Source: Aminobacter anthyllidis (lineage in GTDB: Bacteria; Pseudomonadota; Alphaproteobacteria; Rhizobiales; Rhizobiaceae). Taken from it: a stretch of DNA of 64,000 nt. The stretch is taken from NCBI RefSeq assembly GCF_018555685.1, contig NZ_JAFLWW010000004.1, positions 434,001 through 498,000 on the forward strand, written 5' to 3'. A program made the translations under genes and the position numbers. Position 1 is the first letter of the stretch; every line of letters begins with the position of its first letter. Positions 5,287 to 62,498 of this stretch are shown in pieces. Below the pieces are notes generated by a model that was given only the letters and a program-made list of their open reading frames with translations, searched no databases and was not told the DNA's origin.

Positions 5287-5328
5287 GCTGAGTTTATTGG
5301 TATTCTACCCCGACGTCAGGGAGTAGAC

Positions 5329-6550: not shown

Positions 6551-6596
6551 GGGTGTCGCCGCTGAAGAGCGCGCCGCGACCTGAGGAGAATGCCTG

Positions 6597-6977
6597 CTAG
6601 CCGTCGCCGGCGGCGATCGAAGCGCCGGGTACATACAGCATGATCGGCCGTATTTCATAGACAGCGGTCGGATTGGCTGAACGCAACTCGCGTGCCGCGG
6701 CCACTGCGCCGTCCATGCTGGGGTAGTCCACCACGTAGAAACCGAGCAGCTGCTCCTTGGTCTCGGCGAACGGACCGTCGGTGACCAGTCCGAGTCCTTT
6801 TCCCCTCAGCGTGACCGCGCTGTCGGTCGGCCCGAGGCGCGCCGCCGGTCCCAGATGCTTCTCGCTGACAAGACGATCGTTGATCTCGAGCAGATCCTCC
6901 ATCAGTGCCGCGTCTTCCTCCTCGGTCCAGGATTCGACCACTCCCTCGGCGTGATACGCCAGGATGGCATAAAGCAT
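6597..6977 (-). CDS. YciI / DGPF-domain protein
   Basis: 126-residue protein of the YCII-related family (dimeric alpha-beta barrel). The family mark is VTDGPFAETKEQLLGFYVVD near residues 65-84, with an N-terminal MLYAILAYHAEG strand. Such proteins are often cotranscribed with ECF sigma factors, but none is present here. The function is not known for most members; some act as small hydrolases or sensors. It is followed on the same strand by nothing; the LysR gene lies upstream on the same strand with a 112-base gap, so it probably has its own promoter. Confidence 0.8.
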   Translation of the reverse strand: MLYAILAYHAEGVVESWTEEEDAALMEDLLEINDRLVSEKHLGPAARLGPTDSAVTLRGKGLGLVTDGPFAETKEQLLGFYVVDYPSMDGAVAAARELRSANPTAVYEIRPIMLYVPGASIAAGDG

Positions 6978-7089
6978 GGCTGGTCCTCCCTTCGTTCCAC
7001 ATTACAATTTGGGCCAGCGAGCCATTGTTTGGTTCTGACCGCAAGTACCAAAAGCTGCCCGGCTATCGACCTTCCAGCATGGCCACTGA

Positions 7090-30070: not shown

Positions 30071-30109
30071 CCAAGGGCGCAATTATACGTCGCTGACGCG
30101 ACGCCTTGC
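30071..30109 (+). other. oriT: Origin of transfer (oriT), rhizobial/Ti-plasmid type
   Basis: The 39-base block begins CCAAGGGCGCAATTATACG and continues with CGTCGC TGAC GCGACG, a perfect 6-base inverted repeat at 30088-30103, then CCTTGC. This is the form known for the oriT of Agrobacterium and rhizobial plasmids, placed as expected between divergent traC and traA. The relaxase should nick within the GGGCGCAATTATA part, related to the RSF1010 nic region. Confidence 0.85.
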
Positions 30110-30183
30110 TCAACGGCCTGTCCAGCCAGCCGCTCCTGACGAACGCACGAGTGTCCGTTCGCTATCCAGGAGCAATCTCTGCC

Positions 30184-33100
30184 GTGGCCGTCCCGCACTT
30201 CTCCGTCAGCATTGTCAGCCGCGGTGACGGCCGCAGCGCGGTGCTGTCTGCCGCCTACCGCCATTGCGCGAAGATGGAGTACGAACGCGAAGCGCGCTCG
30301 GTCGATTACACACGCAAGCAGGGGCTGCTCCATGAGGCGTTTTCGGTGCCGCCCGATGCACCGCAATGGCTGCGCAGCCTGATTGCCGACTGCTCGGTGG
30401 CAGGTGCTTCGGAAGCCTTCTGGAACAAGGTCGAGGCGTTTGAGAAACGCTCGGACGCCCAGCTTGCCAAAGACATCACCATTGCCTTGCCGCTGGAGCT
30501 TTCAGCCGAGCAGAACATCGCGCTCGTCAGTGATTTCGTCGAACGACACATCCTCGCCAAGGGCATGGTAGCGGACTGGGTCTATCATGATGTGCCAGGT
30601 AATCCGCATGTCCATCTGATGATGACACTGCGGCCGCTGACCGAGGACGGTTTTGGTCCCAAGAAGGTTGCTGTCATCGGTGAGAATGGCGAGGTCTTGC
30701 GTAACACCGCCGGCAAGATCGTCTATGAGCTTTGGGCCGGTGGGGTCGACGACTTTGCGGCTCTTCGCAATGCCTGGTTCGAGATCCAGAACCGACATCT
30801 GGCACTTGGCGGGATCGACCTGCGTGTTGATGGTCGCTCTTATGCCGAGCGTGGCATCGATCTCGTCCCAACCACCCATATCGGCGTTGGCGCCAAGGCG
30901 ATCCAGCGCAAGTCAGCGATTGAAGGCCATGAGATGTCGCTCGAGCGGATCGAGCTGCTCGAGGCACGGCGCAAGGAGAATGCGAACCGAATCCTGAAGC
31001 GACCCGAGATCGTGCTCGACATCGTCTCCTCGGAAAGAAGCGTCTTCGACGAACGCGACATCGCAAAGATCCTGCACCGCTATGTCGACGATGCCGGCAC
31101 GTTCCAGCAGCTGATGGTGCGCATTCTGCACAGCCCCGAGGCGCTGCGTATCGAGCGCGAGGGCATTGACCTTGCAACGGGAGCGAAGATCCATTCCCGC
31201 TACACGACGCGTGAGCTGATCCGCATCGAAGCCAGGATGGCGAAGCAATCGCTGTGGCTGTCACAGCGCGCATCACATGGCGTTCGAGATGAAGTGCTGG
31301 ACAGCGTGCTTTCGCGTCATTCGCAGCTGTCGCAGGAGCAGCGTGTCGCCATCGAGCACGTCGTGGATGAGGCACGGATCGCAGCTGTCGTCGGCCGCGC
31401 CGGTGCAGGCAAGACCACGATGATGAAGGCAGCACGCGAGGCGTGGGAACTGGCCGGTTATCGTGTTGTCGGTGCTGCCCTTGCCGGCAAGGCAGCGGAG
31501 GGCCTTGAGAGGGAAGCAGGCATCGTCAGCCGCACGCTGGCATCGTGGGAACTGCGCTGGAAGCAGGGCAGGGACATGCTCGACAAAAGCACGGTGTTTG
31601 TTGTCGACGAAGCTGGCATGGTTGCCTCAAAGCAGATGGCACTGGTCGTTGAAGCGGCAACCATGGCCGGCGCAAAGCTTGTGCTGGTCGGCGATCCCGA
31701 GCAGCTCCAGCCGATTGAAGCAGGGGCTGCGTTTCGGGCAATAGTTGACCGCATCGGTTACGCCGAACTCGAGACCATCTACCGCCAGCGCGAAGAGTGG
31801 ATGAGAGCCGCCTCGCTCGACCTGGCGCGCGGTCGCGTCGCAAAGGCGCTCGGGGCTTATGGCGAGCACGGCAGAGTGTGTGGGTCAGAGCTCAAGGCAC
31901 AGGCGATCGCCAGCCTGATTGCCGACTGGAACAGCGACTACGATCCCACGAAGACAACACTCATCCTCGCCCATCTTCGCCGCGACGTGCGCGAGCTCAA
32001 TCGCCTGGCGCGCGACAAGCTCGTCGAGCGCGGGATTGTCGGCGAGGGACATGCCTTCCGCACCGAAGACGGTCTTCGTCAGTTCGACGCTGGTGACCAG
32101 ATCGTCTTCCTCAAGAACGAGACTTCGCTCGGTGTGAAGAACGGCATGATCGGACGGGTCGTCGAAGCCGCACCAAACAGGATCGTTGCTGCCATCGGCG
32201 AGGGTGAACATCGCCGGCTGGTCACAGTCGAGCAGCGCTTCTACCCCAACATCGATCATGGCTATGCGACCACGATCCACAAGTCGCAAGGCTCGACTGT
32301 CGACCGGGTCAAGGTACTCGCTTCGCTGTCGCTGGATCGGCATCTGACCTATGTCGCAATGACCCGGCACCGCGAGGACATGGCGCTCTATTACGGGCGC
32401 CGCTCCTTCGCCAAAGTGGGCGGGCTCGATGGCGTTCTGTCGCGAACGAATGCCAAGGAAACCACGCTCGATTACGAGCGCGGCACACTCTACCGGCAGG
32501 CACTGCGTTTTTCCGAAAACCGCGGGCTGCACATATCGCGTGTTGCCCGCACGCTGGTTCGCGACCGGCTCGACTGGATGCTGCGCCAGAGGCAAAGGCT
32601 TGCCAATCTGGCGCAGCGATTGCGTACCAGCACCGAGCGCCTCGGCCTGTTCCAGCGCCCCTCGCTACAAACCTGGAAAGAGGCCGAACCGATGGTCGCC
32701 GGCACCAAGGTGTTTGCCAGGTCGCTGGCCGATGTCGTCGAGGAGAAGCTTCTCGCCGACCAGGCCCTGGCAAAGCAGTGGGAGGAGATGTCGACGCGCT
32801 TTCGCTACGTCTTTGCCGATGCGGAGGCCGCCTTCCGGGTGATGGACTTCAGTGTGCTTCTCACAGACCCCAAGGCCGCGCAACAGACGCTCGCTCGGCT
32901 GGTTAGCGAGCCGGCATCGATCGGAGCACTGAATGGGCGGACGGGTCTTCTCGCATCGAAAGCGGACAAGGAGGCGCGTCGTGTTGCCGAGGTCAATGTG
33001 CCGGCGCTGAAGCGCGACATCGAGCGTTATCTCAAGCTGCGCCAGGGCGCTGCCGAAAGGATCGGGACCGAGGAGCAGGCGCTTCGTCATCGAGCTTCGA

Positions 33101-33486
33101 TCGACATCCCGGCGCTGTCACCGAATGCGAGGGCGGCGCTTGAAAAGATCCGTGAGGCCATCGACCGTAACGATCTTCCAGCTGCTCTTGGCCATGCCCT
33201 CGACAATCACGAGGCGAAGCTTGAGATCGACGGCTTCAACCGTGCAGTAGCCGAGCGTTTTGGCGAGCGGACCTTGCTTACCAACGCAGCCAGGGAGCCT
33301 TCGGGCACTGTCTTCGACACGGCCGCCGAAGGCCTTCGTCCTGGCGAGCGCGAGAAGCTGCGTCAGGCCTGGCCGGTGATGCGCGCCGCCCAGCAGATCG
33401 CTGCCTATGAGCGGACGTCGCAGACATTGAAGCAGACCGAGCAGTTACGGATGGCGCAGCGCCAGGGCTTGGTATGGAAGCTATGA
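30184..33486 (+). CDS. traA: TraA conjugative relaxase-helicase
   Basis: 1,100-residue TraA, full length for the family. Residues 1-230 are the MobA/MobL relaxase with VSIVSRGDGRSAVLSAAYRH and the metal histidines in NPHVHLMMTLR. The middle is a RecD/TraI-type helicase with GRAGAGKTTM (Walker A), VFVVDEAGMV (Walker B) and YATTIHKSQGSTVDRV. The tail is helical. It should nick oriT and unwind the transferred strand. The GTG at 30184 has CAGGAG upstream and gives the family's usual N terminus AVPHFSVSIV; the longer frame from 30106 reads through oriT. No frameshift is visible, in contrast to the decayed traC/traG on the other side of oriT. Confidence 0.92.
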   Translation: MAVPHFSVSIVSRGDGRSAVLSAAYRHCAKMEYEREARSVDYTRKQGLLHEAFSVPPDAPQWLRSLIADCSVAGASEAFWNKVEAFEKRSDAQLAKDITIALPLELSAEQNIALVSDFVERHILAKGMVADWVYHDVPGNPHVHLMMTLRPLTEDGFGPKKVAVIGENGEVLRNTAGKIVYELWAGGVDDFAALRNAWFEIQNRHLALGGIDLRVDGRSYAERGIDLVPTTHIGVGAKAIQRKSAIEGHEMSLERIELLEARRKENANRILKRPEIVLDIVSSERSVFDERDIAKILHRYVDDAGTFQQLMVRILHSPEALRIEREGIDLATGAKIHSRYTTRELIRIEARMAKQSLWLSQRASHGVRDEVLDSVLSRHSQLSQEQRVAIEHVVDEARIAAVVGRAGAGKTTMMKAAREAWELAGYRVVGAALAGKAAEGLEREAGIVSRTLASWELRWKQGRDMLDKSTVFVVDEAGMVASKQMALVVEAATMAGAKLVLVGDPEQLQPIEAGAAFRAIVDRIGYAELETIYRQREEWMRAASLDLARGRVAKALGAYGEHGRVCGSELKAQAIASLIADWNSDYDPTKTTLILAHLRRDVRELNRLARDKLVERGIVGEGHAFRTEDGLRQFDAGDQIVFLKNETSLGVKNGMIGRVVEAAPNRIVAAIGEGEHRRLVTVEQRFYPNIDHGYATTIHKSQGSTVDRVKVLASLSLDRHLTYVAMTRHREDMALYYGRRSFAKVGGLDGVLSRTNAKETTLDYERGTLYRQALRFSENRGLHISRVARTLVRDRLDWMLRQRQRLANLAQRLRTSTERLGLFQRPSLQTWKEAEPMVAGTKVFARSLADVVEEKLLADQALAKQWEEMSTRFRYVFADAEAAFRVMDFSVLLTDPKAAQQTLARLVSEPASIGALNGRTGLLASKADKEARRVAEVNVPALKRDIERYLKLRQGAAERIGTEEQALRHRASIDIPALSPNARAALEKIREAIDRNDLPAALGHALDNHEAKLEIDGFNRAVAERFGERTLLTNAAREPSGTVFDTAAEGLRPGEREKLRQAWPVMRAAQQIAAYERTSQTLKQTEQLRMAQRQGLVWKL

Positions 33487-33712: not shown

Positions 33713-35479
33713 CTAGGGTACGTCCACTACAAGCTTGAACAAGCAATCTCCAGGCTCAGTAAGGGCAGGGGCTCGTTGGCAGGCAACGAGACCAGACTGC
33801 GCGAACTGCACCGATCTGGCAGGCTCGGACGGCCCAGCGATCGGATGAATGACGCCGGCAAGATCTCCGGCCTGAACCTCGTCTCCCACCGCCACCGCCG
33901 GCTCGAATATCCCCCTGACCGGCGCATAGGTGAAGGCATGCCTGCCATCGACCCGCATGGTCCGGGTTGGCCCCGCCGGCTCAACGATGGCGTCGGGCAG
34001 GATGCCCATATGTTTCAGCACACGCAGCACCCCGTCTCGCGCGAGCGTTTCGCCCGCCCGTGACATCGTCGCTCCACCGCCGAGTTCGGTGGTCAAGGCA
34101 GGAATACCGAGCGCCTGGGCTGTCGCCGACAGGGTTGTGGCGCCACCGCCACCCGAACCATCACTGATCGAGCCGATGGGAGCGCCGAAGACGCGCATGA
34201 GTTCGATCAGCTGCGCCGTCTCAGTTTCAGACCGGCCCACGCGGATCAAGCAGCAGGGGAGGTAAAGCAGCGAGGTGCCACCGGAGTGCAGGTCAATGAC
34301 GATGTCGGTGAGCGGCAGCAGCACCTCGGAGACGTAATGGGCGATCGTCTCAGTCGGTTTGCCATTGGCGTCGCCGGGAAACATCCGGTTGAGATTGCCC
34401 TGATCGAGCGGCGACACGCGCCTGCCTGCGTCGACCGCGGGATAGTTCAGCGCCGGCAGGATGATGATGCAGCCGCGGAGCTCGCTTGCATCGAGCTGTC
34501 GGGCAAGCTTGCCGAGTGCCACCTGGCCTTCATACTCGTCGCCATGATTGCCGGCGAGCAGAAGAGCGGTCGGTCCGACACCATTCCTGATGCAGACGAT
34601 CGGGATCGGAATGGTGCCATAGGCGGAACGGTCGCTCGAAAACGGCAACCGCAGACAAGTGATCTGCTTGCCGTCCTTGTCAAAATCAATGTCCGTCCAG
34701 ATGCGTGTGTCGGTTGCCACTGGTCCCTCCCTCCTCATCAATGCAGCAGCGTGTTGAGGAAAGACTGAGCGCCTGGGCGTCGAAAAGAACGTCATCGGCG
34801 AGGCCTGTTCGACGATGCTGCCCTGATCCATGAACACGACCTGGTCGGCAACTTCGCGGGCAAAGCCCATCTCATGGGTGACGCAGATCATCGTCATGCC
34901 TTCCTGGGCCAGACCGGTCATGACGTCGAGCACCTCCTTGACCATTTCGGGGTCGAGCGCGGAGGTTGGCTCATCAAACAGCATCAGCCGCGGGTTCATG
35001 CAGAGCGCACGTGCGATCGCCACACGCTGCTGCTGCCCGCCTGACAATTGTGCAGGGTATTTGTTGGCCTGTTCGGGAATGCGGACCTTTTCCAGGAAAT
35101 GGCGCGCCAGGCTCTCAGCCTCCTTGCGCGGCATGGAAAGAACCCGGCGCAGTGCCAGCGTGCAGTTCGACAACACAGTCAGATGTGGAAACAGGTTGAA
35201 GCTCTGGAACACCATTCCGGTCTGGCGACGCGCCAGTGCTGTCTCCCTGGCATTGTCACCCAGCCGGACCGTGCCCAGTGTGACGGTTCCCTGCTGGTAG
35301 GCTTCAAGTCCGTTGAGGCAGCGGATCAGGGTCGACTTGCCCGAACCGGACGGTCCGCAGATCACAACGCGTGACCCGCTTGGGATGGTGAGGTTGACCA
35401 CCTTCAACACATGGAAGGCGCCATACCATTTGTTGAGCGAGGATATCTGGACGGCAGCTTTGTCGTCTGTCAGGGTCAT
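33713..35479 (-). CDS. Frameshift fusion: amino acid ABC transporter ATPase joined to DoeB-like M14-family deacylase
   Basis: 588 codons in one frame. Residues 1-237 are a polar amino acid transporter ATPase ([13 protein letters not shown] Walker [16 protein letters not shown] signature, [14 protein letters not shown] Walker B). Residues 250-588 are a zinc deacylase of the succinylglutamate desuccinylase/aspartoacylase family, DoeB-like, with [13 protein letters not shown] and VIDLHSGG supplying zinc ligands. At the joint, near 34768-34785, the alternative frame reads [10 protein letters not shown] and stop, the normal end of such ATPases. So a one-base indel removed the stop and fused two adjacent genes; the deacylase would otherwise start near 34720 after GGAGGGAGG. 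It may be a sequencing error or a real fusion. The pair recalls ehuA and the DoeB/EutE enzyme of ectoine use. Confidence 0.8.
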
Positions 35480-44109: not shown

Positions 44110-47100
44110 CTACCTTGTGTTGACCACCTCATGCACGACGGGCCACGGTCGACCAGAGGAGATATCCGGATGACGAGGACCAGCGTCAAAGCCACCTTGT
44201 TCGTCACGCTCGGCATCGATTTTTGTTAAATAGTCGACTGCGAATTCGGCCGTTTCTGGGTCAGTAGACTGGGTCATTACGTACAGCCCTTTGCGGAGTT
44301 CGGACAGATCACGTGGAATGAGAGAGTATGGCGATGAACCACTTCCAATAGGCTGGTGGAAGTACAGAATTTTGGAGCGAGTACTCCAGCCAAATTGACC
44401 AATGACACGGCGCCCTATCTCGTCTTGTGCAAGCTTGAGGAAGATAGCGTGATCTGCTCCAGCGAGAAGGATGCTGGCCAGCAGTGCTTTCTGTCGCTCA
44501 TCAGTTGCCTCGTCATACCGCGCTGGGAGGCTCTCACGCGCCTCTGGGGAGAGCGTCAGAAACAGTTCGTCAGGGTAGTCGAAGCGTGTGCCACGTTCGA
44601 TTGGCTTGTTACCGAATTTTCTTGCCGCGATTTCCAGCAGGAAATCCAGCGTTGCTGGGCCTGGATTCCTGAGCGTAAGAAATAGCTGATACTGGTCGAT
44701 CAACTTCGGGTATCGCGTTACAAGTCCGCGCAAAAGTTCAACGCGAAGAGTTTCCTCCAGATGGCGCAAGCTATTCAAGAGGTCCCGGATACGCCATTCC
44801 CTGAATTCGAACTTTGCGGCCATCGCGTCTAATCCGTCGAACAGCGAAAACGGCTGATCAGACACAGGCAGCAGTTCCAGCCAGGCGAACAACGGGTACA
44901 TGTCATTGTCCTGTATCCATTTGCGATCGCCATGCTCGGCCATGGCATCAGAGAGCCCTTTCATGATGATGCTGGCAGGCACGACAATGCCACCTACCGT
45001 CATGCGTTGCGCAAATTCGAGCCGCAGCTGGTTCGGTAAATCGGCTTGCACGATGTCGATCAGGAATGCCGTCCGGTCGCCATGCGGGAGCAGCACAGCG
45101 CAGCCGGCATACCGCGCCGCAAGCCCGAGTTCTTTGGGAGAGCCGCCATCTCGCACGGTCTCTGCAGCCTGGAGAAGTAACTCCGCGGTGTCGCAGCTCT
45201 GGGCGCGGTCCCTTGACCGGTTTGCGGCGGCACGAGCGAAGTCGGGCCATCCGCCGAACTTACGATTGTTATCGTCAGGCACTGGTTCGTTTCGCTGCTG
45301 CCAAATAATTTGGAGGCCGACAGCCGCTTCCAAACCGAAGTCTGCATCGAGAAGATGACGCTTCAGAACCGCTTCGGCATCATCGGTTCCGATGGTTGTT
45401 AGCATGATGCGATACTCTTGAACGTGAGACCAGCGCATCTCGTTTAGGGCCTTCTCGTTGGACCTGTTGGCCGCAAACGCTACCCTGGCCGCGCCAAGAC
45501 CCGCGAGGTCCGCCTCGATCATCTTGTCCAAAATGGGTACCTGACCCGCATCAGGGACGCGGCGCATGGCCCAAGTAAGCTTGGCCATGTCATGGCGCGA
45601 CGCCGACTTTTCGATAAGCTGCCGTCCCCATCCTTCTATCAGCTTGACGGCAGCTGGCCTGGTCGCAGAGGGCATCTGCAAATGCTCGATATCGCCTCCG
45701 CGACCGTGCCGGCTGATAATATCGGCGAGGTCGTGAATCTCGTCAGGAGTTCGCCCCTCTGCAAACTCCTGCAAGACATCGACTAGTACGCTTGCGCGTG
45801 TGCTTTCCAGCTTGTTTGCAAGCGTCTGCGAGGGTTTGTAGGCGGCCTCCGTCCTCTCGCCGTCTGCCTGGAACTTGCTTCTGGCATCAAGGTAGCGCAC
45901 GACCAACTCCCGGACGGTATTGTGCCCGGCGAGAAAACACACCACGCTCAGTCGATCGCTATTGTCGTCTTGCAGCGTCAGAGTTGCTACCGGATCATTG
46001 TCGGTAGGTTCGACGCCCTCCAGATACCGATGCGGCTGGTAGGGTACATCGAGAGCGTTCTCCACTCGCCATTTGAGTGCTACGGCGACCCGCCGCGGAA
46101 AGCGGATCCAGGCGTCGTGGGTGATGTGATGTCCGCGGTCCTTGAATGAGAACGCGGGGTCTTTCAGTTCACGCTCAACCGCAACCGCTGCTTCTTCGTC
46201 CGAAAGGCAGTCGAGCGCCCTCGCCAAGCGTGTCTCTGGCGATCCATCATCTGTAACTAGGGCTTTCCTCCTTTCCATCAGGTCGGCCAGTAGTTCTGGA
46301 TTTCGAACCCCGTCGAAGTAGCCCCTTTGTGCGACGGCTTGCGCCAGCTCCTTGCCAGAGGCTTGCAGAAGCTCCTCCATTTGCCGCGTGGCGGCACGGA
46401 AAGAGAGGCCTTGAAAGATGCGAAGCCTGATTTCCAGGCTGGGTTCATTCAATGCCATCGCGAGGACCACATCTATGGCCTCCCGATCGCCACGAAATGC
46501 CAATTCGGCGGCCAATGTCTCGCGAACCTTATCTGGCAATGCTGCAAAGTCCCGTGCGAGATGACCTCCGAGGACGGACGGATTGAATCGAGGGACGAGC
46601 CTCATCGCGCTCATCTGGTTCTGATCGTCGTCGCCAGACACGAGGGGCCAGACGATGTCGGCAAACTCGGCCCTCTTGCTCTGGATCATGAAACCCACAG
46701 CGCGGTCCAACCTGCCTTGCGCATGCCAGGCGCGCGCGAACCTTTCGACTCTGTTTCCGATGATCTCCCAGACAATTAGCCCCGATCGCGCGATAATTTG
46801 CGCAGCGAAAATTGGGTCGATACCGAGCAGCAGGTCCACGACTTTGGCGACCACCTTGGCACTCGCCTGGTCTTTTCGCGACATTCGCTCGCATGCGAAC
46901 AGGACCACTTCGCTCCAGCTGCGGTCGTTGAGCGCAACAATTGCAAGTGGATGCTCGAAGCTGAGGTTATCCCCTGCCACGACAAGGCGCGCCTCAAAGT
47001 CGAACGACGCACACCACTCTTGCAATTGCTGATGCTGGAAGACGTAGAGCTGGCTGTCCTGCCGGACCAGCAAGTGGCTGGCCACGAGGATGTCGAGGAC

Positions 47101-48573
47101 GTGAGGCGGGTTTGGTGCAGTTGAAATCTGCCCCTCAGACACTAGCTTTTCACCAGCACTCGATACAGCCGAACGCGCATCGCGATCGGGAATGGTCGGC
47201 GTGCCCGACATCTGGGCGGCCGCTGCGACGGCCGTGAGGTAGGTATGCTGGGCGTCATGCAACTCGCGGTGAAATAGCTCCTTGTTGGCGGGAATGGCTT
47301 CATGGGCCTCGACCATGCGGCGAAGCACTTCTTCCTTGGTCTCTGGCAACTTCCCCGAAGTGGTCGCCTCCATCAAAGCGCGCAGATACAGAGGTATGGT
47401 GACAAGGTCGCGCAAACCGACGGTACGCCAGGCCGCATCGAGCACACTGACGCCATCCGGCCCCCTTATGCCCTCCGCGACTTCGTGTTGTTGCTCGTCC
47501 GAGAGGGGTAGGATAGAGATGCGGCGTCCCGCGAGGGGAACGTCCAGCGCAGTCCTGCGGCTGCTCATCACCACGTTCAGCAGCGGAAACTGCGTTTCAA
47601 GCTCCTCCATCTCGTTGATGAGACGGCGGCGTGCTGCGTCAGGGACTTCGTTCCAGCCGTCCAGGATTAGGGCGAGCTCGCCATGGTCTGCCAAGAACTT
47701 GAGGTGCGCACTGGAGAGCACCTCGTAACCTCTACGCCTGGATGCCCAGTCGAACAGGCCCCTACCCGATTCGGCCCATACGCCAAGAGGTACGAACACC
47801 GGCACGGGACCGGCCTCGATCATCTTGCGGGCGATTTGGATGAGCGTTGTGGTCTTGCCAGTGCCCGGCGCCGACAGCAGCACGATATGCTGTGCAGCAG
47901 CGAGAACCTGAGCGAAGTGGCTTTGGTCCAAGTAGAGGACGTCCTCTACGTCCTCTACCATAAGCTTAAGTTCTACGGAGTGCTTTGGCCAGCTCCGACG
48001 CCGCTCGTAAGTTTCAATATCCGCCAGCGCCGCGGCGCGCACCTGCACTTTCACAGTCGCAAGGTCGGCATCTTGAGGCAGACCGAGCCGTGAAATGTAA
48101 GGCGCCAACTGCTGGATGAGTTCGTCCGACAACTGGGCGATGGTCGCTGGCCCTTTGCCGCTGGCAAGTTGCTGGAACGCACGTTCTTCCGCCTCGTGCT
48201 TCCACTTCTCCAGCTTGTTGAGTGTGAATTCCTTCGGGTTGTGGTCGATAAGGTGAGCATGATCGGCGCAGAGCCAGATTCCGTTGTCCGCACTCGCACG
48301 TTCGGCGGGGCTCTGATTGGAATCGTAGCGAGGCCCGCCAGGTGAGGCGGCCTTGATGTGGGCTGCAACGCCGATGATGTTCGTACCTTCTTCGCCTTTG
48401 CGTGGCCCGACGGTCAGCCGCTGGCACTGCGGGTTGGAACACAAGTAGCCGACGCGCTGGGCGAGCTGGATCTTAACCGTGGGCTTGAAGTCGTCGCGCC
48501 GGCGGGCCGCGACGACTGGCCTGGTGCCGTCTATCGGCGCAACGGCTTTGGGCGTCAAAAGCGAGTCGGGCAT
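44110..48573 (-). CDS. HNH nuclease-NACHT NTPase, bacterial STAND-type antiphage protein
   Basis: 1,487 residues. Residues 35-130 are an HNH endonuclease (CSNPQCQRLTVGP; GVAAHIKAASPGGPRYD with His72; SADNGIWLCADHAHLID with Asn97 and His105). Residues 200-480 are a NACHT NTPase: LLSAPGTGKTTTLIQIARK is Walker A at 233-250 and LALILDGWNEV is Walker B at 300-310. The remaining 900 residues are helical repeats, probably the sensor. This plan (effector, NTPase, repeats) is that of bacterial NACHT and Avs defence proteins, which cut DNA after sensing a phage protein. It is the last of three same-strand genes with a HEPN protein. The trigger is unknown. Confidence 0.85.
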   Translation of the reverse strand: MPDSLLTPKAVAPIDGTRPVVAARRRDDFKPTVKIQLAQRVGYLCSNPQCQRLTVGPRKGEEGTNIIGVAAHIKAASPGGPRYDSNQSPAERASADNGIWLCADHAHLIDHNPKEFTLNKLEKWKHEAEERAFQQLASGKGPATIAQLSDELIQQLAPYISRLGLPQDADLATVKVQVRAAALADIETYERRRSWPKHSVELKLMVEDVEDVLYLDQSHFAQVLAAAQHIVLLSAPGTGKTTTLIQIARKMIEAGPVPVFVPLGVWAESGRGLFDWASRRRGYEVLSSAHLKFLADHGELALILDGWNEVPDAARRRLINEMEELETQFPLLNVVMSSRRTALDVPLAGRRISILPLSDEQQHEVAEGIRGPDGVSVLDAAWRTVGLRDLVTIPLYLRALMEATTSGKLPETKEEVLRRMVEAHEAIPANKELFHRELHDAQHTYLTAVAAAAQMSGTPTIPDRDARSAVSSAGEKLVSEGQISTAPNPPHVLDILVASHLLVRQDSQLYVFQHQQLQEWCASFDFEARLVVAGDNLSFEHPLAIVALNDRSWSEVVLFACERMSRKDQASAKVVAKVVDLLLGIDPIFAAQIIARSGLIVWEIIGNRVERFARAWHAQGRLDRAVGFMIQSKRAEFADIVWPLVSGDDDQNQMSAMRLVPRFNPSVLGGHLARDFAALPDKVRETLAAELAFRGDREAIDVVLAMALNEPSLEIRLRIFQGLSFRAATRQMEELLQASGKELAQAVAQRGYFDGVRNPELLADLMERRKALVTDDGSPETRLARALDCLSDEEAAVAVERELKDPAFSFKDRGHHITHDAWIRFPRRVAVALKWRVENALDVPYQPHRYLEGVEPTDNDPVATLTLQDDNSDRLSVVCFLAGHNTVRELVVRYLDARSKFQADGERTEAAYKPSQTLANKLESTRASVLVDVLQEFAEGRTPDEIHDLADIISRHGRGGDIEHLQMPSATRPAAVKLIEGWGRQLIEKSASRHDMAKLTWAMRRVPDAGQVPILDKMIEADLAGLGAARVAFAANRSNEKALNEMRWSHVQEYRIMLTTIGTDDAEAVLKRHLLDADFGLEAAVGLQIIWQQRNEPVPDDNNRKFGGWPDFARAAANRSRDRAQSCDTAELLLQAAETVRDGGSPKELGLAARYAGCAVLLPHGDRTAFLIDIVQADLPNQLRLEFAQRMTVGGIVVPASIIMKGLSDAMAEHGDRKWIQDNDMYPLFAWLELLPVSDQPFSLFDGLDAMAAKFEFREWRIRDLLNSLRHLEETLRVELLRGLVTRYPKLIDQYQLFLTLRNPGPATLDFLLEIAARKFGNKPIERGTRFDYPDELFLTLSPEARESLPARYDEATDERQKALLASILLAGADHAIFLKLAQDEIGRRVIGQFGWSTRSKILYFHQPIGSGSSPYSLIPRDLSELRKGLYVMTQSTDPETAEFAVDYLTKIDAERDEQGGFDAGPRHPDISSGRPWPVVHEVVNTR

Positions 48574-55821: not shown

Positions 55822-56226
55822 CTAGCCGAGGCCGACCAGGCCGAGCAGTCCTTTCCAGAGCCTGACCCACCAGCGGGGTTTACGGTTCAGATCGCGATAG
55901 TAGGCCTCGCGCCGGCCATGGTCAGACTTAAGCGCTGCCACGGTCTGGGCGGCACTCATAGCGCGGAGCCAATCGACACGGCCGTCGGTGATGAAATAGT
56001 GTGAGTTGCAAGGCAGCTGCCCACTGCCGATCGAAGGCCGAACGGTTGGCTTGCCATTGCGTTTAGTGACCTTCCAGCCAGTCGGACCGAGCGAGACCGG
56101 CACCTTGCTGCCGCAGCCGCATGCGCAAAGATGCATCGCGATCTTGTACTCGTCGGAGACATACAGCACGCCGGGCTCCAGCACCGCCGGCACATAATGG
56201 ACCTCGGCCAACCGGAAGTCAGTCAC
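55822..56226 (-). CDS. DUF6527 protein of a ubiquitin-like operon
   Basis: 134-residue protein of the DUF6527 family (YVPAVLEPGVLYVSDEYKIA; MHLCACGCGSKVPVSL). Cys34, Cys36, Cys38 and Cys73 with His76 (LPCNSHYFIT) look like a metal site or include a reactive cysteine. The tail is rich in Trp and hydrophobic residues (RWWVRLWKGLLGLVGLG). The GTG start overlaps the E1 gene's stop as GTGA, so translation is coupled. The family is repeatedly found beside ThiF/E1 and ubiquitin-like genes; whether it acts as E2-like carrier, E3-like adaptor or peptidase is not known. Confidence 0.8.
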   Translation of the reverse strand: MTDFRLAEVHYVPAVLEPGVLYVSDEYKIAMHLCACGCGSKVPVSLGPTGWKVTKRNGKPTVRPSIGSGQLPCNSHYFITDGRVDWLRAMSAAQTVAALKSDHGRREAYYRDLNRKPRWWVRLWKGLLGLVGLG

Positions 56227-57398
56227 TCGACGGGCTCCGCAAAAAGGCGCGGCATGACGGTGTTCATCAACAAATTATAGGCCGGCAGCTCGTGTGCGTA
56301 AAATCCGCAGTGCTGTTTATAACGCAACATGGCGATGCTGGCGTTAAGGGCATTGAGTTCGGCAATCTGGATGTTGAGCCGATATTCGTTGCCGGGCGGG
56401 TCGGTAAGCGGCACCAGTCCCTTGCCGCGGACTTCGGCGGCATTTTCAGGCAGGAACGTGGTCGTGCGGACCATGCCGGCAAGCGCACCGTTTTGGCGGA
56501 CCAGCCCCATTCCGACGTCGATGAAAGGAATGCCCAGGCGCATGAGCAGGTCGAAGATTTCCGCACGTGCCGTGCCCTTGTCGACGCAGACGAACGCGAA
56601 GGTCACGCCGGCGAAATCAGCTTCGCAATTGCTGTCAATAGCCTTGGCTTCGAGATGCAGCCCCTTGCGAAAGTTCTCGTAGCGCTGCCGGTAGACTTCA
56701 GCCTTTGGCTTGTCGAGCTCGTCCTGCAGCAACCGCCCGGGCGAGCGGAACGCGTTGTGAACGTGGAAGGGCTTTGGATCGAAGCCCTTGATTTCACGCA
56801 CATTAGTCTTCACCAGAAAATCCAGCACATAGGCGCCGGTCCCGCCCAATCCGATGACGGCAACCACTTCGCTGGCGAACTTCGCGGCGAGATCACCGAT
56901 CAGGGCCCGGCTCGTCAGCGTGTCGCGGAAATGGAAAACACTTTCGGGGCCGGCGTCCTCGTCGACGTCGAAGGTGAAAGGGTTGGCGTTCGGATACTTG
57001 TGAATGGCAGGCCCCGAGAGGATCGACAGGTAGTGTTCGAACTTGACGAAGAAGTCCGGGAGGCCGCCGGGCGGCTTGTTGGAGAACGACCGCTGCACCA
57101 CGATGTCGTCCTTTGCCAGCGTCACGGTGGCGGCACCGCCGCCGAGCATCGGAATTGGCTTGCCGTCAAGTCCATGAGGCACGCCGCCGGCAAAGAAGAC
57201 CTGATGGTCCTCGGGCTGAACCCGCGTGCCGTCGATATCTTTGATGGTGCTGACAATCGCACCCCAACACAGGCCGCCCTCGGCGTCGAGATACGGGATG
57301 TCCCTGGCGGCAAGGTAGTTGCTGTCGAGCCGGAGCGCGTAGCCCCGGTCGATCAGCATCTGGATGTCGGCATTATGACTCGCTAGTTGGAATAACAT
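56223..57398 (-). CDS. E1-like ThiF-family adenylyltransferase with DUF6791-type N-terminal domain
   Basis: 391 residues from MLFQLASHNADIQ. Residues 1-165 are an N-terminal domain (LIDRGYALRLDSNYLAARDI; LGGGAATVTL) of the DUF6791 type. Residues 176-390 are the ThiF/E1 domain: VVAVIGLGGTGAYVLDFLVK at 178-197 is the ATP loop, GFDPKPFHVHNAFRSPG the metal and arginine part, and FAFVCVDKGTARAE has Cys271 as a candidate thioester cysteine. It should adenylate the C terminus of a ubiquitin-like protein. The start lies inside the end of the Ubl gene (26-base overlap) and the stop overlaps the DUF6527 gene, so the operon is tightly coupled. Confidence 0.88.
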   Translation of the reverse strand: MLFQLASHNADIQMLIDRGYALRLDSNYLAARDIPYLDAEGGLCWGAIVSTIKDIDGTRVQPEDHQVFFAGGVPHGLDGKPIPMLGGGAATVTLAKDDIVVQRSFSNKPPGGLPDFFVKFEHYLSILSGPAIHKYPNANPFTFDVDEDAGPESVFHFRDTLTSRALIGDLAAKFASEVVAVIGLGGTGAYVLDFLVKTNVREIKGFDPKPFHVHNAFRSPGRLLQDELDKPKAEVYRQRYENFRKGLHLEAKAIDSNCEADFAGVTFAFVCVDKGTARAEIFDLLMRLGIPFIDVGMGLVRQNGALAGMVRTTTFLPENAAEVRGKGLVPLTDPPGNEYRLNIQIAELNALNASIAMLRYKQHCGFYAHELPAYNLLMNTVMPRLFAEPVE

Positions 57399-57645
57399 GG
57401 AAGTCCATCCCGTTCTTGGCCTTGACCGAGCCACCGGGGGCCAGTGTGCCCTCTTTGGGCTTGTCGCCGCGGGTGTAGGTCACCGAATAGACCGTCTGCG
57501 GGTGCTGCGGGTAGGTGGGGTCGAAGTAAGTCACCACCTCCGCATAGGTCAGCTCGTCCTTTTTTGGCACCTGATGCGGGGTGCCGTTTACCACGATGGT
57601 GATGGTCTTATCGTGAGGACCCGTCTTGTCGTCGTTGTCAGTCAT
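57373..57645 (-). CDS. Ubiquitin-like (multiubiquitin-domain) protein
   Basis: 90-residue beta-grasp protein. KTITIVVNGTPHQVPKKDEL opens the ubiquitin fold; LTYAEVVTYFDP and VYSVTYTRGDKP follow, and the protein ends with KNGMDFHVIPTSES. This is a single copy of the domain called multiubiquitin. There is no C-terminal Gly-Gly, so activation would require trimming or a different mode of attachment. The start at 57645 is taken because the family begins shortly after; the frame extends to 57867 over the preceding gene. It precedes and overlaps the E1 gene, so it is the natural substrate. Confidence 0.85.
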   Translation of the reverse strand: MTDNDDKTGPHDKTITIVVNGTPHQVPKKDELTYAEVVTYFDPTYPQHPQTVYSVTYTRGDKPKEGTLAPGGSVKAKNGMDFHVIPTSES

Positions 57646-57661
57646 TGTATGCTTCTTTCTG

Positions 57662-57883
57662 TTAGCCCTTGGGAGGGTAGGGGTCGTTGCCGTACGAGTT
57701 GGAGTCGCGGATCTGCCCGTTGGGCCGATGGATGACCACCTCGCTATGCTGGTTGATGGCGATCTGCCGTGCCGATGCGATGGCATCGGCCTGGGTCGGA
57801 TGAAGAGAAGTCGCCCGGCTGTTGCCGGCGCCGAGCACCCCCCACTGACCGTCGCGAGGTACCACATGCTGATTTTTGCTCAT
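57662..57883 (-). CDS. DUF2188 protein
   Basis: 73-residue protein of the DUF2188 family (NQHVVPRDGQWGVLGAGNSR; TSLHPTQADAIASARQIAIN; GQIRDSNSYGNDPYPPKG). Such small proteins are predicted single-stranded or double-stranded RNA/DNA-binding-like folds but lack a proved function. CGGAG lies seven bases before the ATG. It is the first gene of the ubiquitin-like operon, 16 bases before the Ubl gene. It may be the target or adaptor of the modification. Confidence 0.82.
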   Translation of the reverse strand: MSKNQHVVPRDGQWGVLGAGNSRATSLHPTQADAIASARQIAINQHSEVVIHRPNGQIRDSNSYGNDPYPPKG

Positions 57884-57917
57884 GAAAGGCTCCGTTAAGG
57901 CTCATTTGCTACAAACT

Positions 57918-57936
57918 CGTAAGGCTATATCTTACG
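57918..57936. promoter_or_regulatory. Inverted repeat between Ubl operon and XRE-ImmA pair
   Basis: CGTAAG gctatat CTTACG is a perfect 6-base inverted repeat 35 bases before the DUF2188 start and about 100 before the XRE start. It is well placed as the operator of the XRE repressor for both directions. Confidence 0.45.
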
Positions 57937-58037
57937 CCAAGGCTTGCGTCAATGGCTGTGGTATGATGTTGTGGTGCCTGATCAGACGGCGTGCCGCGAA
58001 AGCGAGCGCGCCACACGTGATTCCGGAGAAAGACTGA

Positions 58038-58364
58038 ATGGTGGAACTGGCCGTCAAGCTGAAGCAGCTGCGCGTGCGCAGCGGGAAATCGCTGCAGGAG
58101 GTCGCCGACGCGGTCGGCGCCTCGAAGGCGCATATCTGGGACCTGGAGCGCGGCGCGAGCAAGAACCCGTCCCTAGGCTTGCTGAAGGGCCTTGCCGACT
58201 ATTACAAGATCGGCGTTGCCGAATTGGTGGGTGAAGATCCGACCGCTGCGGAGGAGGAGCCTGATCTGATCGCCCTCTATCGCAACCTCAGCGAACTGGA
58301 ACCGGAGGACCGCCAGACCATCGCGCTGATTGCTGAGCGGCTGAAGGCCAGCCGCAAACCATGA
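58038..58364 (+). CDS. XRE-family repressor paired with ImmA/IrrE protease
   Basis: 108-residue regulator. The helix-turn-helix is LKQLRVRSGKSLQEVADAVG then ASKAHIWDLERGASKNPSLG; a C-terminal helix segment LEPEDRQTIALIAERLKAS follows. The ATG has GGAGAAAGACTGA upstream. The stop overlaps the start of the ImmA/IrrE gene as ATGA. Repressor-protease pairs of this kind (ImmR-ImmA, DdrO-IrrE) switch on nearby genes after damage when the protease cuts the repressor. Control of the divergent ubiquitin-like operon is inferred. Confidence 0.85.
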   Translation: MVELAVKLKQLRVRSGKSLQEVADAVGASKAHIWDLERGASKNPSLGLLKGLADYYKIGVAELVGEDPTAAEEEPDLIALYRNLSELEPEDRQTIALIAERLKASRKP

Positions 58365-59269
58365 ACATCACCCGGATGGACCTGGCCGACGCGGGCAGCC
58401 CCGAACGCCTCGTTCTCGAGATCCTCAAGTGTGAGCCTCAACTGCCGATCCCGGTGCCGATCGAAGAGCTATGCCTGAGGCTGGATATCCACGAAATCTT
58501 GCCACTTACTACGAAAGGCTTCGAAGGCGGGCTGATCACCACGCCGGACAAATTCAAGGGCACGATCCTTTTCAACGCGGCAAGCCCGCGAGAGCGGCGT
58601 CGCTTCACGATCGCTCACGAGCTCGGACATTTCCTGATGCCGTCGCATGTGCCGTCAGCCGAAGGGCAATTTCTGTGCAAGTTGCAGGACATGCGGGAGC
58701 TGAAGGGCGGCGAGTCGGACCGGCGGCTGAAAATGGAAGTCGAGGCCAATCGCTTTGCCTCGCAGCTCCTTCTGCCGCCGCCGAAATTCCGGGTCGATGT
58801 GGCGGTCGGCAAGGATCCCGACATCCGTCAGATGACGGCCATCGCCAGAAAGTACGACGTCAGCAAAGAGGCCACCGCCCGCGCTTATGTGCACTTCCGC
58901 GAAGAGCCAGTCGCGGTCGTGGTGACGCACAACGGCAGGGTGCTGCGCGATTATCATAACGCGCTCAAATTTCCCAAGCTGGCGATCCCTGCCGGGGCTA
59001 TGGTCCCCGCGCACTCCCTCCTGCGCCGCCGGACACATGAACAGGGCGTGGCCAGCGACATCGACGAGACCGACGCCGGCGTGTGGCTCCATGTGGAAAG
59101 GGGACGCCAGCCGGCGCCTCTCTATGAGCAGGTCTTGGTGCAACGCGACGGCTACGCGCTGATCATGCTGTCCCGCGACGTGGCCTCGGGCGACGACGAG
59201 GAGGAAGACGAAGAGGGAGAAATGACCTCGGCACAGCGCCTCAAACGCCGCCTGGATCGCGACTGCTAA
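58361..59269 (+). CDS. ImmA/IrrE-family metallopeptidase
   Basis: 302-residue protein. Residues 77-140 carry the zinc protease site: RRRFTIAHELGHFLMPSH with HELGH at 86-90, then VEANRFASQLLLPP with the third ligand Glu. The C-terminal 150 residues (VVVTHNGRVLRDYHNALKFP and an acidic Glu/Asp stretch DDEEEDEEGE) are likely a sensor or partner-binding part. Family members cut a partner repressor, which is here most likely the overlapping XRE protein; others process phage or toxin proteins. In this place it may also act on the ubiquitin-like tail. Both are inference. Confidence 0.88.
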   Translation: MNITRMDLADAGSPERLVLEILKCEPQLPIPVPIEELCLRLDIHEILPLTTKGFEGGLITTPDKFKGTILFNAASPRERRRFTIAHELGHFLMPSHVPSAEGQFLCKLQDMRELKGGESDRRLKMEVEANRFASQLLLPPPKFRVDVAVGKDPDIRQMTAIARKYDVSKEATARAYVHFREEPVAVVVTHNGRVLRDYHNALKFPKLAIPAGAMVPAHSLLRRRTHEQGVASDIDETDAGVWLHVERGRQPAPLYEQVLVQRDGYALIMLSRDVASGDDEEEDEEGEMTSAQRLKRRLDRDC

Positions 59270-60395: not shown

Positions 60396-61301
60396 ATGGA
60401 TACCCTGTTGACCAATGCACCGACCACGCCGCTTCGCCAGCGCATGCAGCAAGACATGCTCATGCGCGGCCTGGGCTCCCATACCCAGCAGGACTACGTT
60501 CGTCACGTCCGGCGCTTCGCAGTCTTCCTCCGACGCTCTCCCGATTCCGCGACGTCCGAGGACATCCGCCGCTTCCAGCTGTATCAGCATGAGAACGGCG
60601 TCGGCCCTGCGACGATAAACGGTGGGGTCTCCGCACTGCGGTTCCTGTTCCTGGTGACGCTGAAGCGGCGGGATCTCGCGCGTGCGCTGGTGATCACCCG
60701 GTATCAGCGCAAGCTACCCGACGTGCTGAGCGTGGAGGAAGCCGCCCGGCTGCTCGAAGCAGCACCAGGCATCAAGTACAAGGCCGCGCTCGGCACCGCT
60801 TATGGCGCTGGTCTTCGTGTGTCCGAGGTCGCTCATCTCAAGGTCGACGACATCGACAGCACGCGCATGCTGATCCGCGTTGAACAGGGCAAGGGTCGCA
60901 AGGATCGCAACGCTATGCTCTCGCCGCAGCTGCTGGAACTGCTGCGGCTGTGGTGGCGCGAAGGCAAGCGGCGCGGGGTGATGCTCCCGCATGGCTGGCT
61001 GTTCCCCGGGCGCAGCTGCACCGATCCGATCTCTTCGCGGCAACTGCACCGCGCGGTTCAGGAGGCAGCCGAAGTCGCCGGCATCCGCAAGCGCGTCAGC
61101 CCGCACACGCTGCGGCACAGCTTCGCCACCCATCTGCTCGAACAAGACGTCGACATCCGCGTCATCCAGGTGCTGCTCGGCCACAGCAAGCTCGATACGA
61201 CCGCGCTCTACACCAAGGTCTCGACCCGGACGATCCACGCGGTCGCCGGGCCACTCGACCGGCTCATGGCACTGATGGAAGGCAAGACGCCGCCCGGCTG
61301 A
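60396..61301 (+). CDS. Tyrosine recombinase of an IS91-type element
   Basis: 301-residue XerC/D-like recombinase. The N-terminal SAM-like domain is TTPLRQRMQQDMLMRGLGSH then TQQDYVRHVRRFAVFL; the catalytic domain has TAYGAGLRVSEVAHLKVDDI (Arg), SPHTLRHSFATHLLEQ (HxLR) and LLGHSKLDTTALYTKVS with the tyrosine. It is the accessory integrase that precedes the transposase in many IS91-family units, separated here by four bases. It is intact. Confidence 0.88.
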   Translation: MDTLLTNAPTTPLRQRMQQDMLMRGLGSHTQQDYVRHVRRFAVFLRRSPDSATSEDIRRFQLYQHENGVGPATINGGVSALRFLFLVTLKRRDLARALVITRYQRKLPDVLSVEEAARLLEAAPGIKYKAALGTAYGAGLRVSEVAHLKVDDIDSTRMLIRVEQGKGRKDRNAMLSPQLLELLRLWWREGKRRGVMLPHGWLFPGRSCTDPISSRQLHRAVQEAAEVAGIRKRVSPHTLRHSFATHLLEQDVDIRVIQVLLGHSKLDTTALYTKVSTRTIHAVAGPLDRLMALMEGKTPPG

Positions 61302-61304
61302 TCC

Positions 61305-62498
61305 GTGCGCGCGGATCTGGAGGTCGCCGACATCTTCCGTGTCGCCGGTCCTGCCTACCGGGCCGCCCATGCCAGACACCTGGGCCTCACCCAGCTCAAG
61401 GTCATGTCGGCGATCGAGCACTGCCGCACCACAGCTCTTGGTGGTCATGTCGAAGCCTGCGAGGACTGCGGCCAGTGGCGGATCGCTTACAATAGCTGCC
61501 GCAACCGGTACTGTCCGAAGTGCCAGGGTGCGGCCGCGCGCGCCTGGCTTGCCGAGCGGGAGGCTGACCTACTGCCGGTCGGCTACTTCCATGTCGTGTT
61601 CACGCTGCCCGCCGAGGTCGCCGACATCGCCTTCCAGAACAAGGCGCTGGTCTACGACCTGCTGTTCAAGGCGGCATCGGAGACCATGCTGACCATCGCG
61701 GCCGATCCGAGGCACCTCGGCGCGCGCATCGGCATAACCGCTGTGCTCCACACCTGGGGCTCGGCGATGACCCACCACCCGCATGTCCACATGATCGTAC
61801 CAGGCGGCGGCATCGCGCCGGACGGGAGCCGCTGGATCTCGTCGCGCCCGGCCTTCCTTCTTCCCGTGCTCGTGCTCGGCAAGCTCTTCCGCCGGCTCTT
61901 CCTCACACGGCTGATCGCGCTGCACGACGCCGGCCGGCTCGCCTTCTTTGGGTCGATGGCGTACCTCGCCAAACGGCGGGCCTTCCTGCACCACCTGGCT
62001 CCCGTCGGGAAGAAGCGCTGGGTTGTTTACGCCAAGGCACCGTTCGGGGGACCGGAGGCAGTGCTCGCCTATTTATCGCGCTACACCCACCGGGTCTCGA
62101 TCTCGAACCGCCGGCTGATCAACTTCGACGAGAGCGGCGTCACCTTCCGCTACAAGGATTATCGTCGCAACGGCACCGACCGGCAGCAGGTCATGACGCT
62201 CGCGACTGATGAGTTCATTCGCCGCTTCCTGCTCCATGTCCTGCCGCGCGGCTTCCACCGCATCCGTCATTACGGCCTGCTCGCCGGCTCGACTCGGAAG
62301 AACCGCATCGCACGCGCCCGCGAACTGCTTTGCGTTGCCCCACCTCCCGATGACGATGCCCAGGACGAACCGGACGAATTCCGCCCGTCATGCCCGTGCT
62401 GCGGCGGACGCATGATCGTCATCGAGGCGTTCGAACGATGGAGGCAGCCGCGCGCACCGCCAGACACAACCACGGCGAACCCGGAGAACCATCCATGA
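61305..62498 (+). CDS. IS91-family transposase (HUH rolling-circle)
   Basis: 397-residue transposase. A zinc-binding head (CEDCGQWRIAYNSCRNRYCPKC) is followed by the HUH-type pattern MTHHPHVHMIVPGGGIAPDG with the paired histidines, and YLSRYTHRVSISNRRL with the catalytic tyrosines, then a tail CPCCGGRMIVIE. It starts with GTG at 61305. Such elements move by rolling-circle replication and can carry adjacent genes with them, which may explain the mixed neighbourhood. Confidence 0.92.
   Translation: MRADLEVADIFRVAGPAYRAAHARHLGLTQLKVMSAIEHCRTTALGGHVEACEDCGQWRIAYNSCRNRYCPKCQGAAARAWLAEREADLLPVGYFHVVFTLPAEVADIAFQNKALVYDLLFKAASETMLTIAADPRHLGARIGITAVLHTWGSAMTHHPHVHMIVPGGGIAPDGSRWISSRPAFLLPVLVLGKLFRRLFLTRLIALHDAGRLAFFGSMAYLAKRRAFLHHLAPVGKKRWVVYAKAPFGGPEAVLAYLSRYTHRVSISNRRLINFDESGVTFRYKDYRRNGTDRQQVMTLATDEFIRRFLLHVLPRGFHRIRHYGLLAGSTRKNRIARARELLCVAPPPDDDAQDEPDEFRPSCPCCGGRMIVIEAFERWRQPRAPPDTTTANPENHP

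Follow-up and report, generated by a model that had tools for sequence, protein, structure and literature searches.

A 64,000-nucleotide stretch of the Aminobacter anthyllidis genome (the window; contig NZ_JAFLWW010000004.1, positions 434,001 to 498,000, or G000:C25:434001-498000) contains a compact operon for a DUF2188 protein, a ubiquitin-like protein (Ubl), an activating enzyme (E1) with a DUF6791 head and a DUF6527 protein, divergent from an XRE repressor and an ImmA/IrrE protease. We consider it probable that the locus is a mobile operon with a stress-response or defence function and belongs to the polyUbl class (the domain-X version of the type 6e operons of Iyer 2006), as a sister of the Bub operons that lacks both a JAB peptidase and a conjugating enzyme (E2), is switched by damage and transfers its Ubl through DUF6791. 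For the most part the operon adds one more example to a known class; it is well conserved and mobile, and at its centre stands an E1 without a conserved cysteine. An earlier note on this DNA had described the six genes, and gene calls and Pfam confirmed them together with its coding overlaps (26 nucleotides between Ubl and E1, and 4 each between E1 and DUF6527 and between XRE and ImmA) and its divergent gap of 154 nucleotides between DUF2188 and XRE. Its view of the locus as a Ubl-activating operon is supported. As that note had also stated, neither JAB nor a known E2 family was detected in the six proteins (Pfam, E up to 1), and the Ubl ends in IPTSES without a terminal Gly-Gly. PF14462 (Prok-E2_E) matched no protein of the window or of the A. 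anthyllidis genome.

We compared the window operon with its relatives. The core set comprised 27 operons with a complete Ubl: the window, L003, 13 genome stretches (L017-L029, which include a second copy from the same genome) and 12 plasmids (L030-L041, chosen for spread among the 60 matches listed). Shorter duplicates of other stretches (L001, L002 and L005-L016) were dropped, L004 with its 5'-truncated E1 was left out of the E1 and Ubl counts, and the distant E1 of L045 was excluded from every count. In L018, L026 and L041 phmmer missed the Ubl gene, which was identified from the frame that stops within the E1 start. The gene order Ubl-E1-DUF6527 was kept in all 27 operons, and on plasmids it occurs in Alphaproteobacteria, Gammaproteobacteria, Cyanobacteria and Bacteroidota. 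Across 398 sampled genomes of the phylum, the window's own included, all nine DUF6791 places have a DUF6527 place no more than about 1.3 kb away; the pairing therefore reflects more than chance. The A. anthyllidis genome itself carries a second, diverged Ubl-E1-DUF6527 operon (L017, G000:C6:23000-36000; about 35% E1 identity), with a four-gene set upstream that encodes a ribbon-helix-helix (RHH) protein, a 215-residue protein, an XRE protein and an M78 protease. DUF2188 proved optional and the regulator pair is exchanged. As a first operon gene, DUF2188 was found in L031, L022 and L096, and a remnant is present in L030.

The adenylation residues of the E1 are conserved. G183, G185, G186, G188, R218, K232 and D294 of the nucleotide site were invariant in the 27 E1s, and the window E1 also matched NF004803 PRK06153.1-2 above the cut-off. 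The earlier note had proposed a relay in which a thioester on Cys271 of the E1 passes to DUF6527, acting as a cysteine E2 or E3. In favour of it, Cys271 is present in the window E1 and four cysteines are invariant in DUF6527. However, the Cys271 column holds Cys in 17, Ser in nine and Ala in one of the 27 E1s, Ala recurs in the viral-collection E1s of L044 and L052, and no column of the E1 alignment is an invariant Cys. We therefore rejected Cys271 as the catalytic residue, Ser or Ala taking its place in 10 of 27 sequences.

The cysteines of DUF6527 also argue against this relay. C34, C36, C38, C73, S75, H76 and Y77 were invariant in 28 of 28 DUF6527 proteins, and H32 was present in 26. The invariant Cys and His residues (C34, C36, C38, C73 and H76) resemble a metal (zinc) site, the phage forms in L057 and L059 have a YHAH stretch in place of C73-x2-H76, and DUF6527 coexists with E2 and JAB in Bub operons. 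DUF6527 as a cysteine E2 or E3 was rejected on these grounds, and we regard the relay as a whole as highly improbable. The AlphaFold 2 (AF2) model of DUF6527 has a predicted local distance difference test score (pLDDT) of 84.9, and no credible relative was found in the PDB by sequence (best E 0.29) or by fold (best E 0.7). In the operon forms the C-terminal tail is cationic and resembles an amphipathic helix. The moment of the C-terminus exceeded shuffles (p<0.05) in 16 of 28 proteins, against four of 28 for the N-termini, and 12 of 28 fell short; among seven E2-type DUF6527s the test was positive at the N-terminus in two and at the C-terminus in none. Among the papers available to the literature search, none named DUF6527 or DUF6791.

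Short relatives of DUF6527 also occur on viral contigs. There are 14 such loci, 12 of them without an E1 match in the DNA available; L057 has nearly no upstream DNA and is uninformative on this point, L058 is truncated at the 3' terminus, and L043 and L055 are parts of one contig. Ten of the proteins (L046, L047, L049-L051, L053, L054, L056, L057 and L059) stand alone and end before the amphipathic tail. An 89-residue viral protein in BFVD resembles the DUF6527 model (TM 0.92 by its own length, 48% identity). Stand-alone viral DUF6527 could conceivably serve counter-defence or be an unrelated use of the domain.

Three features of the core genes were noted here: the terminal serine of the Ubl, the 26-nucleotide Ubl/E1 overlap and the invariant Ser106 of DUF6791. 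The last Ubl residue was Ser in all 27 operons, and the position three residues before it was Thr in 24, Ser in two and Ala in one. Since the Ubl already ends at this conserved serine, it needs no trimming. The Ubls of the relatives span 83-278 residues, or one to three repeats as judged by length. The multi-ubiquitin protein in PDB 9cd2 was matched by the window Ubl alone at E 0.0084 and by a profile of the 27 relatives at E 3.5e-60. It ends in TDKS, so a solved structure exists for a Ubl resembling this branch. The overlap given by the E1-frame start codon within the Ubl gene measures 26 nucleotides in 25 of the 27 operons and 41 nucleotides in the other two, L022 and L038; additional start codons lie farther upstream at some loci. 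Three loci of the viral collection (L042, L044 and L052) share the 26-nucleotide overlap, which brings the total to 28 of 30 (L043, without upstream DNA for a Ubl, is in the E1 tree and outside this count). The window E1 frame extends up to a GTG at 57434, and we set its start at the ATG at 57398 (391 residues) because the 26-nucleotide overlap is common to the relatives. The viral-collection contig L044 carries a Ubl-E1-DUF6527 operon (5772-7525) that keeps both the overlap and the terminal serine; by eye it encodes a TFIIB-like open reading frame (ORF), and its source is possibly archaeal.

We examined the DUF6791 head as the likely site of Ubl transfer. S106, K108 and H65 were invariant in the 27 E1s. 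S106 was kept in the viral-collection E1s of L042, L043, L044 and L052, with Arg replacing K108 in L044. The AF2 model of the E1, built from six input sequences, reached a pLDDT of 72 and a predicted template modelling score of 0.54, with blocks over residues 51-115 at pLDDT 51 to 84. It places helices at 2-8 and 10-18, strands at 21-25, 28-37, 43-51, 67-70 and 103-105, then S106, and a helix at 116-134. The UBC fold of E2 enzymes has an alpha-beta4-alpha topology, with the active-site nucleophile between beta4 and alpha2. We propose that the predicted topology of DUF6791 resembles that of an E2, with S106 near the position of the E2 cysteine.

DUF6791 might instead be a peptidase-like or regulatory head that does the job of JAB, the E2 function being borrowed or being unneeded because the E1 hands its Ubl directly to the target. 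The head does sit where JAB would be, N-terminal to ThiF; its invariant H65, S106 and K108 would suit such a role, and a JAB-like function was speculated for domain X, with its conserved charged residues, in the available text of Iyer 2006 (PMC1779556). However, we saw no JAMM motif in the DUF6791 sequence by eye, its score against the BubC-type JAB profile was at noise level (reached by 62 of 100 column shuffles), a Ubl ending at a conserved serine leaves such a peptidase nothing to trim, and the predicted order of two helices, four strands and a helix reads as E2-like. We consider this alternative possible and rather improbable. Shuffles also reached the DUF6791 scores against the Prok-E2_E profile (18 of 100) and the Ubl profile (46 of 100), and DUF6791 as a profile-recognisable homologue of JAB or Prok-E2_E is not supported. 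Three of 100 shuffles were as high as its score against the DUF6527 profile, which covers 13 columns only and was read as chance.

The fold of the E1 bears on a further alternative. Citrobacter BubCD chains took all of the top eight places in Foldseek searches with the E1 model, at E values from about 1e-10 to 8e-10; in seven of these matches the alignment spanned 238-252 columns. These matches leave the N-terminal domain unsettled, because the sequence-profile match of the E1 covers ThiF only. If the Ubl were a non-covalent or sulfur-carrier-type partner with which the E1 carries out small-molecule or thiocarboxylate chemistry, the missing conserved cysteine, the missing Gly-Gly and the ThiF/MccB-type folds among the matches would be accounted for. 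Yet the best structural match is BubCD, from a pathway that a paper title ties to protein conjugation; the C-terminal tail of the Ubl is constant, and the regulators and DUF6527 are shared with Bub. We think this alternative unlikely.

The divergent regulator pair resembles the CapH repressor and CapP protease. The window protease matched solved CapP (PDB 7t5t) at E 2.1e-13, both proteins matched their PADLOC models (Table 1), and an XRE gene adjacent to an M78 gene with an HExxH motif, beside a defence-type operon, is the CapH/CapP arrangement. According to the available text of PMC13373217 (EMBO J 2026), CapH is cleaved by CapP upon activation by single-stranded DNA (ssDNA), and CapW or CapH+CapP accompanies 219 of 544 Bub operons. 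By analogy, the pair is likely to be the damage-responsive switch that the earlier note had envisaged. The control region contains a CGTAAG-N7-CTTACG inverted repeat (57918-57936), a candidate operator; it is the sole such site in the window, where 0.03 would be expected, the pattern having been picked after it was sighted. No sigma-70-like promoter was found in the 154-bp control region. GTTGTC-type palindromes occur in the control regions of L027, L037 and L038 and are absent from those of L031 and L032.

We assigned regulator labels by hand to 31 E1s. The counts were XRE+M78 in 11, the four-gene RHH/XRE/M78 set in three, a UvrD-M78 fusion in seven, WYL (CapW-type) in two, CapK/S-like in one and other or none in seven, three of which come from viral-collection contigs, L043 among them without upstream DNA. 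Checks of these labels showed that L003 and L031 have a one-piece helix-turn-helix (HTH)-M78 protein, that the HTH of L020 falls below the Pfam cut-off, that the 98-residue M78 partner in L033 has no Pfam match and an unproven HTH, and that in L034 the WYL gene is separated from the Ubl gene by a nuclease gene. The M78 domain of the UvrD fusion was called by Pfam in L018 and L040 and by full-length phmmer match in the other five. On the E1 tree the XRE+M78 label changed five times, versus 9.3 in shuffles, none of 500 of which was as low. The XRE+M78 pair and the Ubl operon are therefore linked but exchanged, the swapping of this module being directly observed, and the link that the earlier note had expected between them is retained in 11 of the 31 loci and, with altered M78 partners, in the three four-gene and seven UvrD-M78 loci. 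Two of the seven M78 domains in the A. anthyllidis genome flank its two Ubl operons. The WYL proteins lie beside L034 and L039 and the CapK/S-like protein in L028, so all three regulator types published for Bub (CapH/P-like, WYL and CapK/S-like) stand beside DUF6791 operons.

Two variants of the M78 partner were seen in passing. In L018, L019, L024, L025, L035, L040 and L041 a same-strand UvrD helicase gene precedes the DUF6791 operon, and in L018 and L040 the helicase protein has M78 at its N-terminus and a PD-(D/E)XK domain at its C-terminus; the fusion is a possible damage sensor joined to an ImmA-type protease. In L003 (4547-5671, minus strand) and L031 (2938-4071, minus strand), HTH and M78 are combined in one protein at the CapH/CapP position.

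We propose the following mechanism. At rest, the CapH-like repressor would hold the divergent promoter shut. ssDNA from damage or phage replication would activate the CapP-like protease, and cleavage of CapH would then allow DUF2188, Ubl, DUF6791-E1 and DUF6527 to be produced. The E1 would adenylate the carboxylate of the C-terminal serine of the Ubl, which would be handed to its target without a conserved E1 cysteine, probably via the DUF6791 head, placed where Bub has a separate E2 and a JAB-E1 fusion. DUF6527 would be a zinc-site adaptor that selects or positions the target, and its amphipathic tail might allow this to happen at the membrane. With no JAB encoded and no trimming needed, conjugates may stay attached. 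We infer damage sensing from the CapH/CapP homologues, and we also infer the transfer chemistry, the role of DUF6527 and a benefit against phage. In a more specific version, DUF6791 would act as an E2-like domain that lacks a cysteine, is joined to its own E1 and carries the Ubl as an ester on Ser106; with an invariant-Ser modifier, no deconjugating protease and a zinc adaptor with a membrane-seeking tail, this would be a damage-controlled, one-enzyme, one-way tagging system. We advance it tentatively and hold it to be doubtful. The Ser106 ester is drawn in parallel to the invariant serine in the W-S-x-H motif of Bub Prok-E2_E, which might act likewise: that motif was present in all 16 aligned Prok-E2_E domains, in which no column had more than four Cys.

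Several results weigh against the proposed mechanism. DUF6791 showed no significant similarity to Prok-E2_E or JAB profiles (hhalign probability under 1%), for which reason its E2 reading is a proposal. The available text of PMC13373217 gives Bub operons as not shown to protect against phage. The nearest relative of the window operon, L030 (81% E1 identity), has no adjacent CapH/CapP, and the one-piece HTH-M78 protein of L003 was not matched to the window's pair by phmmer; from these two loci we take the switch to be exchangeable.

Table 1. Genes and features of the Ubl locus, in window coordinates
Feature	Position	Strand	Evidence or context
DUF6527 protein, 134 aa	55822-56226	minus	PF20137 E 3.7e-22 (Pfam)
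DUF6791-ThiF E1-like enzyme, 391 aa	56223-57398	minus	PF20590 E 1.1e-37; ThiF E 1.2e-9 (Pfam)
Ubl/E1 coding overlap, 26 nt	57373-57398	minus	
Single beta-grasp Ubl, one Multi_ubiq domain, 90 aa	57373-57645	minus	PF14452 E 7.8e-12 (Pfam)
DUF2188 protein, 73 aa	57662-57883	minus	PF09954 E 5.6e-26 (Pfam); PADLOC candidate PDC-S16 E 1.9e-36
Divergent control region, 154 bp	57884-58037		between DUF2188 and XRE genes
XRE repressor, CapH-like, 108 aa	58038-58364	plus	HTH_31 E 3.2e-12; PADLOC capH E 9.1e-20
ImmA/IrrE (M78) metalloprotease, CapP-like, 302 aa, HELGH motif	58361-59269	plus	Peptidase_M78 E 1.6e-14; PADLOC capP E 3.5e-54

We examined the distribution of the operon and scanned ten flanking proteins with domain profiles. 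The window E1 was present in one of 10 genomes of the genus, its own alone, and a scan of genome contigs with this E1 as lone query returned two loci only. DUF6791 was detected in six of 151 sampled family genomes and eight of 398 sampled phylum genomes, the window's own genome counted in each. By tblastn the E1 matched 116 of 72,556 plasmid records and none of 50,697 phage records, and the three core proteins matched no PHROG family at E 0.001. This sporadic occurrence, the plasmid matches and the nearby mobility and defence genes fit a mobile defence or stress island. About 7 kb from the Ubl operon is an NLR-like defence gene by its domain content (44110-48573, minus strand), encoding a 1487-residue protein with a C-terminal NACHT-type NCAB2 domain (E 9.7e-25) and an N-terminal part resembling endonuclease effectors of the Cap4 type (PADLOC). 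A gene for a MobA/MobL relaxase with AAA and Bartonella-type BID domains (30106-33486, plus strand) suggests a conjugative plasmid or element. A tyrosine recombinase and then an IS91-type transposase lie at 60396-62498 (plus strand), and a Tle1-like hydrolase (PF09994; 53286-54869, plus strand) neighbours the operon. One ORF (33713-35479, minus strand) combines an ABC transporter ATPase domain with an AstE/AspA catalytic domain, an unusual fusion.

We compared the operon to known systems. Its XRE and M78 pair is divergent from the operon it adjoins, as are CapH and CapP in the cyclic-oligonucleotide-based anti-phage signalling system (CBASS) and other immune operons, with the difference that the window pair adjoins a Ubl operon. 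The Bil system (BilABCD) also combines Ubl and E1 in one operon, and BilA (PDB 8u38) matched the Ubl profile over positions 11-166; according to the part of a review available, however, Bil has an E2 with a catalytic Cys, a JAB and a two-domain E1 with Cys417, none of which the window operon has.

The earlier note had judged this combination and its control to be poorly described, which does not stand: type 6e is set out in PMC1779556 and the CapW or CapH+CapP association of Bub in PMC13373217. In the available text of PMC1779556, type 6e operons consist of Ubl repeats, a JAB-E1 or, in a subset, an E1 with an uncharacterised N-terminal domain (domain X), and a zinc-finger protein with the motif C-x3-C-x(35-38)-H-x2-C, and sometimes carry an E2/RWD-like domain. 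Judging by these descriptions, domain X would be DUF6791 and the zinc protein DUF6527. The window agrees with the domain-X version, which has a one-to-three-repeat Ubl, an E1 with a non-JAB head and a separate predicted zinc-binding protein: its Ubl has one Multi_ubiq domain, and its E1 head has no similarity to the BubC-type JAB profile. For the metal motif the picture is mixed: C34-x3-C38-x37-H76 of DUF6527 fits, but the last Cys stands before the His (C73-x2-H76) and not after it. Type 6e and the window operon are both mobile and sporadic. In the text available, the type 6e account says nothing of the XRE/ImmA pair, DUF2188, the terminal serine or the 26-nucleotide overlap.

The Bub comparison draws on PDB titles, the available portions of PMC13373217 and one review. 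Structures of Citrobacter BubA, BubB and BubCD are deposited as 9ea4, 9ea5, 9ea8, 9eae and 9eav. The Bub operon on a C. freundii plasmid encodes CapK-like, CapS-like, Multi_ubiq+Prok-E2_E, Prok-JAB+ThiF and DUF6527 proteins, an order that the window repeats with its Multi_ubiq Ubl, ThiF E1 and DUF6527; the regulators of the CapH/P, CapW and CapK/S types and the E1 fold are further likenesses. Bub differs in carrying Prok-E2_E and an E1-fused JAB, in place of which the window has DUF6791, and in Bub-type operons the Ubl either continues into the E2 or has a different end (TTTEG in L096, GHGNH in L098), whereas the window branch ends in Ser. Among 12 Bub-type plasmid operons (L060, L090-L099 and L104), annotation or profile identified DUF6527 in 11, L093 having none; in the Bradyrhizobium operon L098 a phosphotransferase gene lies between E1 and DUF6527 (3752-5356). 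The Rhizobium phaseoli plasmid L096 encodes XRE, ImmA, DUF2188, Ubl, E2, ThiF with a JAB profile match, and DUF6527. Its XRE-ImmA pair is upstream on the same strand, unlike the divergent pair of the window. Apart from having a classical E2 and a JAB-E1, this gene set equals that of the window, and DUF6791-E1 therefore stands in for both. DUF6527 occurred at 21 places in the 398 genomes: nine beside DUF6791, five beside a Prok-E2_E above the cut-off, seven beside neither and none beside both (three weaker Prok-E2_E matches came from genomes without DUF6527). As the two never share a DUF6527, DUF6791-E1 and E2 plus JAB-E1 appear to be interchangeable options within a shared operon plan. Should DUF6791 turn out to be E2-like and to work without a cysteine, the result would be a minimal single-enzyme Ubl conjugation system, accessible to tests with three small proteins. 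The operon links a class defined in silico in 2006 to the Bub pathway through shared regulators, gene order and DUF6527, with the transfer machinery swapped, and the two can thereby be compared cleanly: the type of input switch and the third gene are shared, and one system has E2 and JAB-E1 where the other has DUF6791-E1.

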